A DNA stretch of 64,000 bases from Pseudanabaena mucicola str. Chao 1806 (lineage in GTDB: Bacteria; Cyanobacteriota; Cyanobacteriia; Pseudanabaenales; Pseudanabaenaceae), in contig NZ_CP097329.1 in NCBI RefSeq assembly GCF_030323025.1, positions 2,486,501 to 2,550,500 of the forward strand. Direction: 5' to 3'. The position numbers and the translations under genes are program-made. Positions 7,347-12,651 of the stretch are shown in pieces (the stretch's first letter is position 1; each line of letters opens with the position of its first letter). The notes beneath the pieces were generated by a model. The model was not told where the DNA came from, did not search any database, and saw only the letters and a program-made list of their open reading frames with translations.

Positions 7347-7817
7347 CTAGTAGGCATTGGCTTGAGTTAATTCCGCAGTTATTAATTGCCGATCGCTATC
7401 TAAATGCTTGTTGAATAAAACTAAGGTTGTAGAAGTATTTTGCTTAAAACCAATATGCTCGTAAAACTTTTGCTGATGGGTGGTCATGAGATATACCCGT
7501 TCCACATTACAAATATGGGGATGTGCTAGAACGGTTTGGACTAATTTGCGACCTAGCCCTGCGCCGCGATATTCTAGATTGATCACTACATCCCAGATGG
7601 TGGCGCGATAGATACCATCACTAGTAGCACGGGCATGTCCAATCAAGCGATCGCCATCCCATACAGTTACAACAGGTTTGGAGTTAGCAAGTGCGATCTC
7701 TAAACCTGCCACAGTACGATCCTTTGCCCAAAATGCCCCCATTTTTAATAATCCCTGTAATTGCTCTAAATCAACATCTTCTTGGCGATCACTAAAGCGG
7801 ATGTGGCGATGATCCAT
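7347..7817 (-). CDS. GNAT-family N-acetyltransferase
   Basis: 156 residues forming a single compact GNAT domain. The acetyl-CoA pyrophosphate-binding loop is seen in the segment LEYRGAGLGRKLVQTVL (R/QxxGxG/A), preceded by a beta strand (IWDVVINL) and followed by the KFYEHIGFKQ segment that closes the fold. The acceptor substrate is unknown. The gene stands alone on the minus strand between phoU and desC. The start ATG at 7817 is supported by the domain beginning within the first 10 residues. Confidence 0.85.
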   Translation of the reverse strand: MDHRHIRFSDRQEDVDLEQLQGLLKMGAFWAKDRTVAGLEIALANSKPVVTVWDGDRLIGHARATSDGIYRATIWDVVINLEYRGAGLGRKLVQTVLAHPHICNVERVYLMTTHQQKFYEHIGFKQNTSTTLVLFNKHLDSDRQLITAELTQANAY

Positions 7818-7962: not shown

Positions 7963-7997
7963 AACAGATAAAGGGCGCTTAGCGCCCTTTATCTGTT
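7963..7997 (-). terminator. Terminator of the desaturase gene
   Basis: A 16-bp perfect G/C-cored stem (7963-7978 with 7982-7997) with a 3-nt loop overlaps the stop codon of desC. On the minus strand it is followed by a T-rich run, fitting a rho-independent terminator. Confidence 0.75.
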
Positions 7998-8859
7998 ACT
8001 TAGCCTGCCAAGGCTCAGCTATGTATACTTTCTGAGCTAAGCCTAATGCTTGCAGCAAACTAATCACGCCCCAAGTTGGATCAATTTCCCACCATTTCAA
8101 ACCAGAGCGAGCAGACTTAGGATAAGCATGGTGATTGTTGTGCCAGCCTTCGCCGTAGGTCAAAATTGCTGCCCACCAGAGATTGGTGGAATGGTCAGGA
8201 GTTTCTGTAAAATTTTTGTAGCCCCACTTATGGCAAGCAGAGTTAATCAGCCAAGTGCTATGCCATAAAAAGACTGAACGCACAGCCATACCGTAAATCA
8301 AGAAGGACATGCCGAGTCCAGAGAATGCACTTTCGCCAACTACATAGAGCAGAGCCGCAAAGGGAACTTGTAAAAGCAAAAAGTATTTATCGAGAAATCC
8401 ATAGTAAGGATTGCTTGCGAGATCGGGCGCAAACTTATTGTAATAAGTACTCTTGAAATGTTCAGGCTTAGAGTACATGATCCACATGATGTGGCTCCAC
8501 CAAAAACCCTTATTTGCCGAATAAGGATCTTTTTGATTGTCTTCTGTAAAACCGTGATGCTGGCGATGTCCACCCACCCAGAATACAGGGCCACCCTGCA
8601 TGGCTAATGCACCGATGGTAGCGATGATATATTCCAACCACTGAGGGACTTGGAAACTGCGATGGCTCAGTAAGCGGTGATAACCTAGGGTAATGCCGAT
8701 GCTCCCAATGAACCAATGCAAGAAGATCGTAAGGATCGCAGCTTGCCATGAAAAATAAAAAGGAGCTGCGAGGGCAGCAATATGGAAAGTGCTGAAAAAG
8801 GCAACATTTGTCCAGTTCAGTTTTGGGTTAGTTGGGATGGCTTTAGTAGTGGCGGTCAT
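7996..8859 (-). CDS. desC: Acyl-lipid/acyl-CoA delta-9-type fatty acid desaturase
   Basis: 287 residues from the ATG at 8859. All three histidine boxes of membrane desaturases are present: HRLLSH at 61-66, HRQHH at 98-102 and HNNHH at 240-244. Hydrophobic pairs at about 23-58 and 157-200 cross the membrane. The box spacing and the CHKWG and GEGWHNNHH contexts are those of the delta-9 (stearoyl) class, which introduces the first double bond into membrane acyl chains. An upstream ATG at 8901 is in frame, but the family begins near MTATT, and 8901 falls inside an operator-like palindrome. The gene diverges from a TetR-domain gene across a short region with two matching palindromes, which suggests control by that regulator. 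Confidence 0.9.
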   Translation of the reverse strand: MTATTKAIPTNPKLNWTNVAFFSTFHIAALAAPFYFSWQAAILTIFLHWFIGSIGITLGYHRLLSHRSFQVPQWLEYIIATIGALAMQGGPVFWVGGHRQHHGFTEDNQKDPYSANKGFWWSHIMWIMYSKPEHFKSTYYNKFAPDLASNPYYGFLDKYFLLLQVPFAALLYVVGESAFSGLGMSFLIYGMAVRSVFLWHSTWLINSACHKWGYKNFTETPDHSTNLWWAAILTYGEGWHNNHHAYPKSARSGLKWWEIDPTWGVISLLQALGLAQKVYIAEPWQAK

Positions 8860-8889: not shown

Positions 8890-8906
8890 TGCAAGTATCA
8901 CTTACA
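8890..8906. promoter_or_regulatory. Operator-like near-palindrome 1 (desC/regulator intergenic)
   Basis: TGCAAGTATCACTTACA matches site 2 in 15 of 17 positions and is a near-perfect inverted repeat with a 3-nt centre. It lies 31 bp upstream of the desC ATG. TetR-type dimers bind sites of this size; binding by the divergent regulator is inferred. Confidence 0.65.
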
Positions 8907-8940
8907 GTTATGCTAAGTCTAACTGTTTTTTAAGTAATAA

Positions 8941-8957
8941 TGCAAGTATCACTTGCA
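8941..8957. promoter_or_regulatory. Operator-like perfect palindrome 2 (desC/regulator intergenic)
   Basis: TGCAAGTATCACTTGCA is an exact inverted repeat (TGCAAGT, ATC, ACTTGCA). Its centre is 51 bp from that of site 1, about five helical turns, so both face the same side of the DNA. It lies 25 bp before the regulator's likely start codon and probably allows autoregulation. Confidence 0.7.
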
Positions 8958-8982
8958 AATCATCTTCATGGTACATGCTCCC

Positions 8983-10248
8983 ATGTCTGTATCTCGAATT
9001 CCCACTCGCCAACGCATTGTTAATACAGCATTGGAACTGTTTGCTAGCAAGGGAATTACCGAGACCACTACTCGCCAAATCGCTGATTTCGCTCAAGTGA
9101 ATGAAGTAACTCTATTTCGCCATTTTGGGAATAAACATGGTTTATTGTTAGCGGTATTGCAGGAATGTTTGCAAAAATATTTGGTACTGGCTCAAGTAGG
9201 GGAGTCTTTGATGGTGTCTGATATTTCTAGTCAGAGCGATTTACGCCGATTTCTCAAATACTACATTCAGAGTTCTTTGCGGGCTCTCGAAAGTGTGCCT
9301 GAGTTAGTGCGATCACTCGTTGGTGAGGCTGGGCAATATCCTGCCGAGAGTCGTCAAGCTCTTGCTCAAGGTATTAATCAGGTCAATCAAACGATCGCTA
9401 CGGCAATTAATGATGTCTTGGCAAATTCGCGGTTGCAATACACTTTGCCACCTATCAAGCTGGCTAATCTCTTAAACACCTGTATTTTGGGCTATGCCGT
9501 TATTACTTTGACGAGTGATGTGCATACGATCTGGCGTGATCGCGATGATTTTGTCAACACTCTAGTTGATATGTTTGTTCATGAGGTCAGTCAATTACCC
9601 CCCACTCATCTCATCATCGATATTCCATCGGAGACGGTGCGCGAAATTCTGCTTCAAGCCAAGAAATGTGGGGTAAAAGATTATGCGATCGCCTACTTAT
9701 TGTTTGGGGCAGGACTGACGGCTGTTGATATTACGTGTTTACGAGTTACGGATTATCAGATTCAAGCTAATCATGGGGTTTTACGGATTAAAGATACGTC
9801 GGATCAAGTACGCTCTGTACCCGTTAATCAAAAAATTCTCGGTCATCGTTACGGCTCAGCAACTAATAATCCCCTCAGTGCCTATTTAAAAAGCCGTAAA
9901 CAAGAGATCAAGGAACGTTATAAGGGTGTTCAAGGTGAAGATGCACTGCTTCTTGACCGTTTTGATCATAAAGAGACTATGTTTCTAAGTAGCAATCTTC
10001 AGCCTTTATCTTTGGAAGAAATCGAGCAAATGTGGTCAGGTTGGACACAAAATTATAGTAATCTCGATGGCACACCCTTGACACTGATGCAATCAAGACA
10101 TACTTGGTGCATCGAAATGTTAGCGCGAGGTATAGATGCGGATAGTTTTTGTATCATTGGTGGGATTAAACCCAAAGAACTCAAAGCTTATCAAACCCGC
10201 TTGAACGAGAAATTAGCGATTGATAAGGCGATCGCCCTTGACTCTTAA
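8983..10248 (+). CDS. TetR-family regulator fused to a degenerate tyrosine-recombinase domain
   Basis: 421 residues. Residues 8-60 form a TetR HTH domain (RIVNTALELFASKGI then TTTRQIADFAQVNEVTLFRHF), followed by helices of a TetR ligand domain to about 205. Residues 210-405 look like the catalytic domain of phage integrases: a helix-turn segment LLFGAGLTAVDITCLRVTD, then a beta-hairpin LRIKDTSDQVRSVPV, then SRHTWCIEMLARGID. The first catalytic Arg is replaced by Thr246, only the R372-H373 pair remains, and no LGH or nucleophilic Tyr motif is clear, so it cannot be an active recombinase of the usual kind. The start is uncertain: TTG 8953, ATG 8968 and ATG 8983 are in frame. The last fits TetR proteins best and leaves the operator outside the gene. 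It probably regulates desC and itself. Confidence 0.8.
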   Translation: MSVSRIPTRQRIVNTALELFASKGITETTTRQIADFAQVNEVTLFRHFGNKHGLLLAVLQECLQKYLVLAQVGESLMVSDISSQSDLRRFLKYYIQSSLRALESVPELVRSLVGEAGQYPAESRQALAQGINQVNQTIATAINDVLANSRLQYTLPPIKLANLLNTCILGYAVITLTSDVHTIWRDRDDFVNTLVDMFVHEVSQLPPTHLIIDIPSETVREILLQAKKCGVKDYAIAYLLFGAGLTAVDITCLRVTDYQIQANHGVLRIKDTSDQVRSVPVNQKILGHRYGSATNNPLSAYLKSRKQEIKERYKGVQGEDALLLDRFDHKETMFLSSNLQPLSLEEIEQMWSGWTQNYSNLDGTPLTLMQSRHTWCIEMLARGIDADSFCIIGGIKPKELKAYQTRLNEKLAIDKAIALDS

Positions 10249-10479: not shown

Positions 10480-12651
10480 GTGAGAGTTCCCCTCGACTGT
10501 TACCGCATTCTTGGTTTAACACAATTATCAGGGCTAGACAAAATCCAGCAAGCCCACCGAGATCGCCTGCTTTCTATGCCAAGGCGCGAATATTCTGATG
10601 CAGCGATCGCCTCTCGCAAACGTATCATTGATAAGGCTTACGAACTTTTAATCGAGCATATTAGTGCACCGAAAGATCAGAAAGATGATGTTGGTGATGA
10701 AATTAGCGATCGCGCTAATAACCGTCCCGTTATAACCCTACCGCCCCAAGTTGAAGCCGACGAAAAAGATTTTGCAGGTCTATTACTAATTTTGTCCGAA
10801 CTCGGCGAGTCCGAGAAAGTTCTTTCCATTGCAAAACCCTATTATGATCCTGAAGAAGCCGAATACCAATCGGCAAGGATCTCACCCCATGATCCCGATC
10901 TATTACTTTCGGTATCTTTGTCCTTCTTAGATCTCGGTCGCGAATATTGGAAACAAGGTCAATATGAATCCGCCGCATCGTCCCTAGAATCTGCTCAAGA
11001 CTTACTCTTGCGGGAGGGACTATTTCTCAGCATTCGTAGTGAGATTCAAGCTGATCTCTTTCGGTTACGCCCCTATCGGATTCTTGAATTGTTAGCGTCC
11101 CCTGACCATCATACCAATGAACATCGCAAAGGGATGTCATTGTTGCAGGAAATGCTGGAGGCACGTCGTGGTATTGATGGCTCAGGCAATGACTACTCTA
11201 GCCTCGGTATCGATGACTTTTTGCGCTTTATTCAGCAACTACGCAGTTATATGACGGCGATCGAGCAACAAACACTATTTGAGGAAGAAGCGCGTCGCCC
11301 CTCGTCGGTAGCCACTTACTTAGCAGTTTATGCCTTAATTGCACGGGGATTTTCGCAGCGTCAGCCCGCCTTGATTCGCCGTGCTAAGGGCTTGCTAGTC
11401 AAACTGAGCGCCAAGCAAGATATTTATCTGGAAAAAGCAGTATGTGCGTTATTGCTTGGACAAACCGAAGAGGCGAGTACAGCGATCGAAAATAGCTCCG
11501 AAGATGATCAAATTGCTTTTATTCGCCAAAATTCTGAGGGTGCGCCCGATCTCTTGCCTGGGCTATGTCTTTATAGTGAACGTTGGCTTCAAGAAGAGGT
11601 ATATCCACATTTCCGCGATTTGATGAACCAAATTGTGTCGCTTAAGGATTACTTTGCTGACGAACAGGTGCAAGCCTATCTCGAAGAATTGCCTAACACA
11701 GGTGCACTTTCATCGGATTGGACATCCCCTGTCGGTGGTGATCGCTTGAATTGGTCTACACCTGCTTCCGTAGAGGAGCCATCTGTAAGACGTGATTTGG
11801 GAACTAGCAAGAGCCACGAGCCAAGACTCTCTAACTATTCTCCTGAGGCTCCTAATCGCTTTCAGAGATCAAGCACGCCTGTCCTTGATAAACCAAACTA
11901 CAGCAATACTAGTAATGCCAAAAGTAGGGACAATAATGTACGTGATCTTCCTAGATCGCGTCGTCCCAGTAATGCACCATCTGTACGCAACAATCGCAAT
12001 ATCCACGATGCTGCTAAGGAAATTAATCGTTCTAGCCTTAGCCCAAGGTATTCAAGCTCAAAACGGAAGTTTAATGTTGGTCGATTAGTTACCGTTATTG
12101 TCGTAGCGATCGCCATGTTAGCAGGTTCGATTTGGCTAGTAGTTTGGGCGTTACGCACTTTGTCAGGAGCCTCTCGCTCTGGAGCATCTATTCCCCTAGA
12201 AAAAAATCTTGGACCCATCGTACAAACCATCAAAGAGAATGGCTCCGTAGCGATCACGCAATCTGGTCCTCTAGATAAGCAATCAGCAACCAAGGTTATC
12301 GAAACATGGCAGTTTACAAAAACCAAAGCGTTAGGTAAAACTTATGAAGATAATTTGTTAGAGGAAATCTTGACTGACCCCGCTCTTAGTGATTGGAAAA
12401 GTCGAGCCAAGGAATTAAAAGCAAGTAATTCCTATTTGCAGTATGAGGTAAAGTCCAGTGAAGTCGATAAGGTTACACCAGATGGAGATACTAAAGCTAA
12501 AGTAGTTGCGAAAATATCGGAATCCCGCAATTACTTTAGTAATGGTGAACTAGATCGCAGCGCCTCGAAGGACAACGCAAACTACACAGTTGAATATGAT
12601 CTTGTGAAAAAAGATAATAAGTGGCTGATTCGAGATATGTTGGTCTTCTAA
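10480..12651 (+). CDS. ftn2: Cell-division protein Ftn2/ZipN (ARC6 homologue)
   Basis: 723 residues starting at GTG. The N-terminal segment (RVPLDCYRILGL to about residue 65) is the DnaJ-like domain of the ARC6/Ftn2 family, followed by a long helical region to about 410. A Ser/Arg/Asn-rich low-complexity linker spans 415-525, one transmembrane helix lies at about 532-557, and a C-terminal IMS-type domain ends in TVEYDLVKKDNKWLIRDM. Ftn2/ZipN tethers and stabilises FtsZ at the inner membrane and recruits other division proteins; ARC6 does this in chloroplasts. It is convergent with recA, with two strong hairpins between them. Confidence 0.92.
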   Translation: MRVPLDCYRILGLTQLSGLDKIQQAHRDRLLSMPRREYSDAAIASRKRIIDKAYELLIEHISAPKDQKDDVGDEISDRANNRPVITLPPQVEADEKDFAGLLLILSELGESEKVLSIAKPYYDPEEAEYQSARISPHDPDLLLSVSLSFLDLGREYWKQGQYESAASSLESAQDLLLREGLFLSIRSEIQADLFRLRPYRILELLASPDHHTNEHRKGMSLLQEMLEARRGIDGSGNDYSSLGIDDFLRFIQQLRSYMTAIEQQTLFEEEARRPSSVATYLAVYALIARGFSQRQPALIRRAKGLLVKLSAKQDIYLEKAVCALLLGQTEEASTAIENSSEDDQIAFIRQNSEGAPDLLPGLCLYSERWLQEEVYPHFRDLMNQIVSLKDYFADEQVQAYLEELPNTGALSSDWTSPVGGDRLNWSTPASVEEPSVRRDLGTSKSHEPRLSNYSPEAPNRFQRSSTPVLDKPNYSNTSNAKSRDNNVRDLPRSRRPSNAPSVRNNRNIHDAAKEINRSSLSPRYSSSKRKFNVGRLVTVIVVAIAMLAGSIWLVVWALRTLSGASRSGASIPLEKNLGPIVQTIKENGSVAITQSGPLDKQSATKVIETWQFTKTKALGKTYEDNLLEEILTDPALSDWKSRAKELKASNSYLQYEVKSSEVDKVTPDGDTKAKVVAKISESRNYFSNGELDRSASKDNANYTVEYDLVKKDNKWLIRDMLVF

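Follow-up and report, generated by a model that had tools for sequence, protein, structure and literature searches.

Computational analysis of the 64,000-nucleotide stretch of DNA considered here (the window) reveals a regulator in which a TetR-type protein is fused to a degenerate tyrosine-recombinase (CAT) domain that has lost its catalytic residues and evolves under purifying selection. The regulator is encoded next to desC and divergently from it, with two palindromes that co-occur with the regulator and overlap the predicted desC promoter. The fusion is genuine, by sequence and by fold, and the regulator probably acts as a dedicated local repressor of this DesC2-like delta-9 desaturase gene via promoter occlusion, with the CAT domain as an auxiliary module. 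The two genes and the domains of the regulator are laid out as follows:

7996..8859, minus strand: desC, acyl-lipid delta-9 desaturase of the DesC2-like clade, the presumed target (PF00487, E 4.3e-18)
8968..10248, plus strand: regulator gene, TetR plus degenerate tyrosine-recombinase CAT domain, 426 aa
9016..9156, plus strand: TetR_N helix-turn-helix, residues 17-63 (PF00440, E 1.7e-13)
9157..9582, plus strand: helical TetR-type ligand/dimerisation domain, residues ~64-205 (structure matches of the model)
9616..10245, plus strand: degenerate tyrosine-recombinase CAT domain, residues ~217-426 (PF00589, XerA profile, model fold)

Residues are numbered from the start at 8968; an alternative ATG at 8983 would give a protein of 421 aa, and the numbering of the first-pass annotation, counted from that ATG, is lower by 5. 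That annotation, made from the sequence, described a TetR helix-turn-helix followed by an integrase-like C-terminal half, and both parts are confirmed. The TetR_N match scores 50.6 bits against a curated Pfam cut-off of 24 and recurs in 49/49 diverse homologues, and the NEVTLFR core of the helix-turn-helix is invariant or almost so. Residues ~10-209 of the regulator model, which is of middling confidence there, match TetR structures including FadR, EthR, and QacR at Z 16-17, with 4gfk, 3whb, and 2g3b among those at Z ~17; the acyl-CoA-binding FadR and other TetR proteins are resembled to an equal degree. In the C-terminal half, Phage_integrase (PF00589) was matched at residues 222-392 with an E value of 2.3e-6 and 28.0 bits, slightly above the curated threshold (27.1); searched alone, this part gives 3.5e-7, and the same domain is detected in 36/49 homologues, with a top E value of 1.2e-11. 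A family profile of the C-terminal half matches XerA of P. abyssi (4a8e) at 3.3e-11, so that the recombinase assignment of the first-pass annotation withstood the profile search by which it could be challenged. The AlphaFold2 model of the C-terminal part alone reaches a pLDDT of 92.6, and its nearest solved structure is, again, XerA (Z 18.8, rmsd 3.5, 176 residues), followed by an integron integrase (2a3v, Z 16.3), XerH, Cre, and lambda Int. Thus, the Pfam matches, the XerA profile, the CAT model, and the TetR structure matches jointly establish the fusion.

The likeness to XerA, XerC, XerD, and the integron integrases, in CAT fold and in sequence, does not extend to their core-binding domain or their catalytic residues. 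The N-terminal core-binding domain is missing, and the TetR module fills the N-terminal half; of the catalytic set R...H-x-x-R...H/W...Y that characterizes active tyrosine recombinases, the regulator family keeps only the Tyr. At the ArgI position, 37/49 homologues have S or T and 2/49 have R, the residue in the window being T251, and the LGH motif is lost as a family feature across these 49 diverse homologues; both losses had been recognized in the first-pass annotation, where T251 appears as Thr246. At the HisII position, H is found in 0/49 homologues, and the ArgII position is occupied by Q in 27/49 and by R in 14/49. Two other readings made there require correction. The Tyr motif, considered missing, is represented by Y408 at the nucleophile position, which is Y in 43/49 homologues and lies in a loop that is shortened by one residue relative to XerA. 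The pair R372-H373 (R377-H378 here), presented as a retained feature, is not family-wide (R in 14/49, H in 12/49); the two residues are lineage remnants. Judging from these residues, the CAT domain has no recombination chemistry left. Nor is it decaying: within the genus, its dN/dS is 0.10-0.13 (0.006-0.03 for the TetR part), and 45 CAT columns show at least 85% identity across the cyanobacterial class, two signatures that, together, indicate purifying selection.

The start of desC is most likely the ATG at 8859 rather than the GTG of the longest open reading frame. In a phylogenetic tree, the linked desaturases, along with three unlinked paralogues, form a group apart from the DesC1 proteins of desA/desB clusters (100/100 support). 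Two delta-9 classes, DesC1 (sn-1) and DesC2 (sn-2), have been proven by experiment, and lipid-bound acyl chains are the substrate of cyanobacterial DesC (PMC4390868); furthermore, all4991 of Anabaena 7120 is a second delta-9 gene that lies apart from the desA/desB cluster (PMC2593844). Given the separate clade, the two known classes, and the location of all4991, we label the regulator-linked desaturase DesC2-like, a designation by clade and literature. In the sigE disruptant, all4991 (desC) is among the genes with lower transcript after nitrogen deprivation (PMC4390870), which hints at a possible heterocyst-lipid link, if all4991 is an orthologue of the linked desC.

The association with desC is a feature of the class. 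Relatives of the regulator were found in 191/390 cyanobacterial genomes (profile matches with E up to 1e-15), and most of the matches listed are full-length fusions covering the whole profile. The expectation that the same fusion would turn up beside desC elsewhere is amply realized: desC is divergent from the regulator in 80/80 named-record loci and in 30/30 family loci. Among the neighbours tested, no gene besides desC is conserved next to the regulator across the class.

The space between the two genes contains the following features:

8890..8906, no strand: operator 2, desC-proximal, TGCAAGT-ATC-ACTTACA with one mismatch, just past the predicted desC start
8916..8921, minus strand: predicted desC -10 hexamer TAGACT, 18 bp from the -35 (conserved block in homologues)
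8940..8945, minus strand: predicted desC -35 hexamer TTGCAT (TTGCA invariant in 102 divergent sequences)
8941..8957, no strand: operator 1, regulator-proximal, TGCAAGT-ATC-ACTTGCA, perfect, containing the predicted -35

The two near-identical palindromes, reported in the first-pass annotation at these positions with starts 51 bp apart, are likely to be operators of the regulator. Within the window alone, chance plays an appreciable part, as two matches arose in 3/100 shuffles; in the whole 4.53 Mb genome, TGCAAGT-N3-ACTTGCA with at most one mismatch occurs only at 8890-8906 and 8941-8957. Almost every relative inspected has kept both palindromes. In the genome search suggested by that annotation, a degenerate pattern of the pair was detected in 132/390 genomes, with 0 for a reversed-pattern control, and the regulator is present in 132/132 of the pair-bearing genomes, the pair being found in 0/199 regulator-negative ones (Fisher 1e-57, shared ancestry uncorrected). 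No such pair was found in viral contigs. Among the 80 named-record loci, 72/80 have two sites at up to 2 mismatches, and in 7 of the remaining 8 a second site appears at 3 mismatches, which brings the count to 79/80. Matching sites elsewhere in the genome are almost nil in 15 genomes, so that a wider regulon was rejected.

The two sites are not equivalent. Operator 1 is perfect in 88/122 distinct sequences and operator 2 in 7/122, which suggests a strong primary and a weaker secondary site, respectively; the G-to-A change of operator 2 is common to 102/122 distinct homologous sites, making the asymmetry nearly fixed. We considered an RNA hairpin or terminator, given one terminator-like match, and rejected it because the conserved A of operator 2 breaks a stem pair and the sites track the promoter. 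In one genome (G050), the regulator is followed by desC on the same strand, and the operator pair sits between the end of the regulator gene and desC, with no site found before the regulator; judging by this arrangement, the operators track desC.

When 102 divergent sequences are aligned on the regulator-proximal palindrome and followed in the direction of desC, the predicted promoter comes into view. The invariant TTGCA is the inner half of that palindrome, and 17-18 bp beyond it the homologues share a TGTTAG...T block that fits an extended -10. The distance from operator 1 to the -10 is, accordingly, fixed at 17-18 bp, unlike the spacing of the site starts, which ranges over 42-60 bp in 122 distinct sequences (outside the genus, mostly 46-48 bp or about 4.4 turns), so that the helical phase between the sites is not constant. 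A plain promoter consensus scan found no promoter at desC: the predicted -35 is weak compared with the consensus, and the T that belongs to the extended -10 of the homologues is absent from the promoter predicted in the window. No conserved sequence beyond the promoter was found between the operators. The palindromes had been thought to flank the desC promoter; the predicted elements place one of them on the -35 and the other just past the start.

Nature provides built-in controls in the form of unfused versions of the regulator. Such TetR proteins occur in G036 as well as in one further family (G041, G065, G078, G102, G111, G129), with a probable further case in G137, where the open reading frame is broken; they adjoin desC and keep the palindrome, and the TetR-domain tree requires at least two changes between the fused and unfused states. 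Since these relatives keep the same operators, operator recognition appears to belong to the TetR part, and the CAT domain is, by this comparison, dispensable in some lineages. In a 146-genome sample searched with a CAT-only profile, members of the cyanobacterial class carry the domain solely inside the TetR fusion. At E 1e-5, this profile recovered no stand-alone CAT ancestor in cyanobacteria save four weak matches (~1e-6) to ordinary-sized open reading frames in distant families of the phylum.

From the divergent linkage and the position of the operators on the predicted promoter, we infer that the regulator controls desC, and we picture operator binding, repression, the ligand, and the contribution of the CAT domain as follows. 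A dimer of the TetR part would bind the regulator-proximal palindrome and cover the desC -35, the weaker palindrome just past the start would be bound secondarily, and RNA polymerase would be blocked. A ligand would then release the repressor, the most plausible being a fatty-acyl thioester or a lipid signal of membrane saturation. In divergent loci, the regulator probably also controls its own promoter. The CAT domain, to judge by its conservation, would be retained in an auxiliary role, most likely to stabilize dimers or oligomers or to add DNA affinity. Regulation by acyl thioesters is suggested by analogy with MadR, DesT, and FabR, which are acyl-CoA-responsive TetR regulators of desaturases (PMC8872791).

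The locus is most simply explained by occlusion by TetR dimers, and other interpretations can be weighed against this one. Operators over the -35 or just past the start are typical of occlusion by TetR repressors, and this is where operators 1 and 2 lie, an arrangement that makes activation of desC by the regulator rather improbable, even if a weak predicted -35 is what one would expect of an activated promoter. Far more remote is phase variation, whereby a working recombinase would invert the promoter segment between the palindromes. The recombinase fold, the retained Tyr, and near-identical palindromes around a promoter-sized segment invite this scenario, which is scarcely credible given that the catalytic Arg, His, Arg, and LGH are lost family-wide and that the same sites lie beside unfused forms. 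With the -35/-10 pair readable in one orientation in 122/122 distinct segments and the site asymmetry nearly fixed, we rejected it on the loss of catalytic residues and the single orientation.

Within the occlusion model, what the CAT domain contributes is a separate question. It could bind DNA itself, as does the phage repressor MrpR, which has a recombinase fold and binds DNA non-catalytically (PMC10516654), and so bridge or loop the two operators; the conserved basic residues R282, R294, R310, and K311 and the nearly constant presence of two sites beside the fused form (the 72/80 and 79/80 loci above) are compatible with such a role. We nevertheless deem it unlikely: the phase between sites spaced 42-60 bp apart varies, the inter-site sequence beyond the promoter is not conserved, unfused G129 and G137 keep both sites and fused G006 a single one, and the net charge of the domain is only about +1 (pI about 8). 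The same facts tell against the proposal in the first-pass annotation that the regulator joins the two sites across five helical turns, although its reading of a desC-linked regulator with likely operators and a dead recombinase fold stands, and the dimer or DNA contacts that it assigned to this fold may occur. A related idea, which we regard as doubtful, is that the domain re-uses the protomer interface and the DNA-contact surface of recombinases, joining TetR dimers across both operators; if so, a recombination synapse would have been turned into a lipid-homeostasis repressor complex and kept across a bacterial class. The near-neutral charge and the highly conserved C-terminal helix ending in A..A..LD are in line with a protein- or ligand-interaction module that plays no role in DNA binding, for which there is a precedent in TnsF, a recombinase-derived protein that contacts TniQ through this region (PMC10293859). 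This possibility, too, is unlikely, with desC as the sole class-wide conserved neighbour among those tested.

Some elements of this system are known already, such as TetR regulators of desaturases and repressors with a dead recombinase fold; what appears new is the joining of the two and the link of the fused regulator to desC throughout the class. The closest parallels to the recombinase part are MrpR (YopR) of prophage SPbeta and SroF of phage phi3T, repressors with a tyrosine-recombinase fold whose structures are among those retrieved when the CAT model was searched by fold (8a0a, Z 11.1, and 9rgl, Z 12.2). MrpR has lost the catalytic Arg (ArgI) and His and kept the Tyr, the replacement of which yields a temperature-sensitive protein (PMC10516654). 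MrpR, however, has its own core-binding domain, in the place of which the regulator has the TetR domain, with the CAT domain alone derived from a recombinase; moreover, the regulator is encoded by a chromosomal gene, is widespread in its class, and has a host lipid gene as its apparent target. DesT, FabR, and MadR are likewise of the TetR type and target desaturase or unsaturated fatty acid genes; the available part of the source makes no mention of a recombinase domain in them (PMC8872791). Dead recombinases combined with other DNA-binding or regulatory domains are also found in the Crypton-derived DUF3504 genes (KCTD1, ZMYM, QRICH1) and in TnsF (PMC3212892, PMC10293859), but the former have lost the Tyr and belong to eukaryotic hosts, the latter functions in transposon targeting, and both are presumably of independent origin. 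Open-access literature searches for the fusion, for TetR proteins with desC, and for the Anabaena locus tags found no description, and an unseen report is possible.

Control of membrane unsaturation in cyanobacteria matters for cold and light tolerance, and the system described here provides a concrete candidate regulator, with operators and a target gene, across about half of the sampled genomes. It also shows, in a conserved bacterial example, the catalytic domain of a recombinase exapted for the regulation of a host gene and joined to a second DNA-binding domain.

Several further observations concern the surroundings and the fringes of the family. In the window, an ARC6/Ftn2-type division protein is encoded downstream of the regulator (10480-12651), an arrangement seen almost exclusively in the genus and its nearest relatives, and a GNAT acetyltransferase follows desC (7347-7817), in an order shared with G036, and is found near a few other loci; as functional partners, both were rejected, being absent from 40 diverse loci of the class. 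The linkage has an exception in G093, where a full-length fusion (L054/L236) is accompanied by one weak palindrome and desC was not found within 2 kb upstream. In G137, the TetR part (L249/L257; G137:C120:3252-3775) extends over two reading frames, adjoins desC, and has two operators, and is best viewed as a broken or mis-sequenced unfused regulator. Finally, G006 contains a 132-aa open stretch (L261; G006:C3:2527463-2527645), the end of which is 53% identical to regulator residues 369-425; located near transposase-like open reading frames, it looks like a copy of the terminal CAT segment that has become detached.
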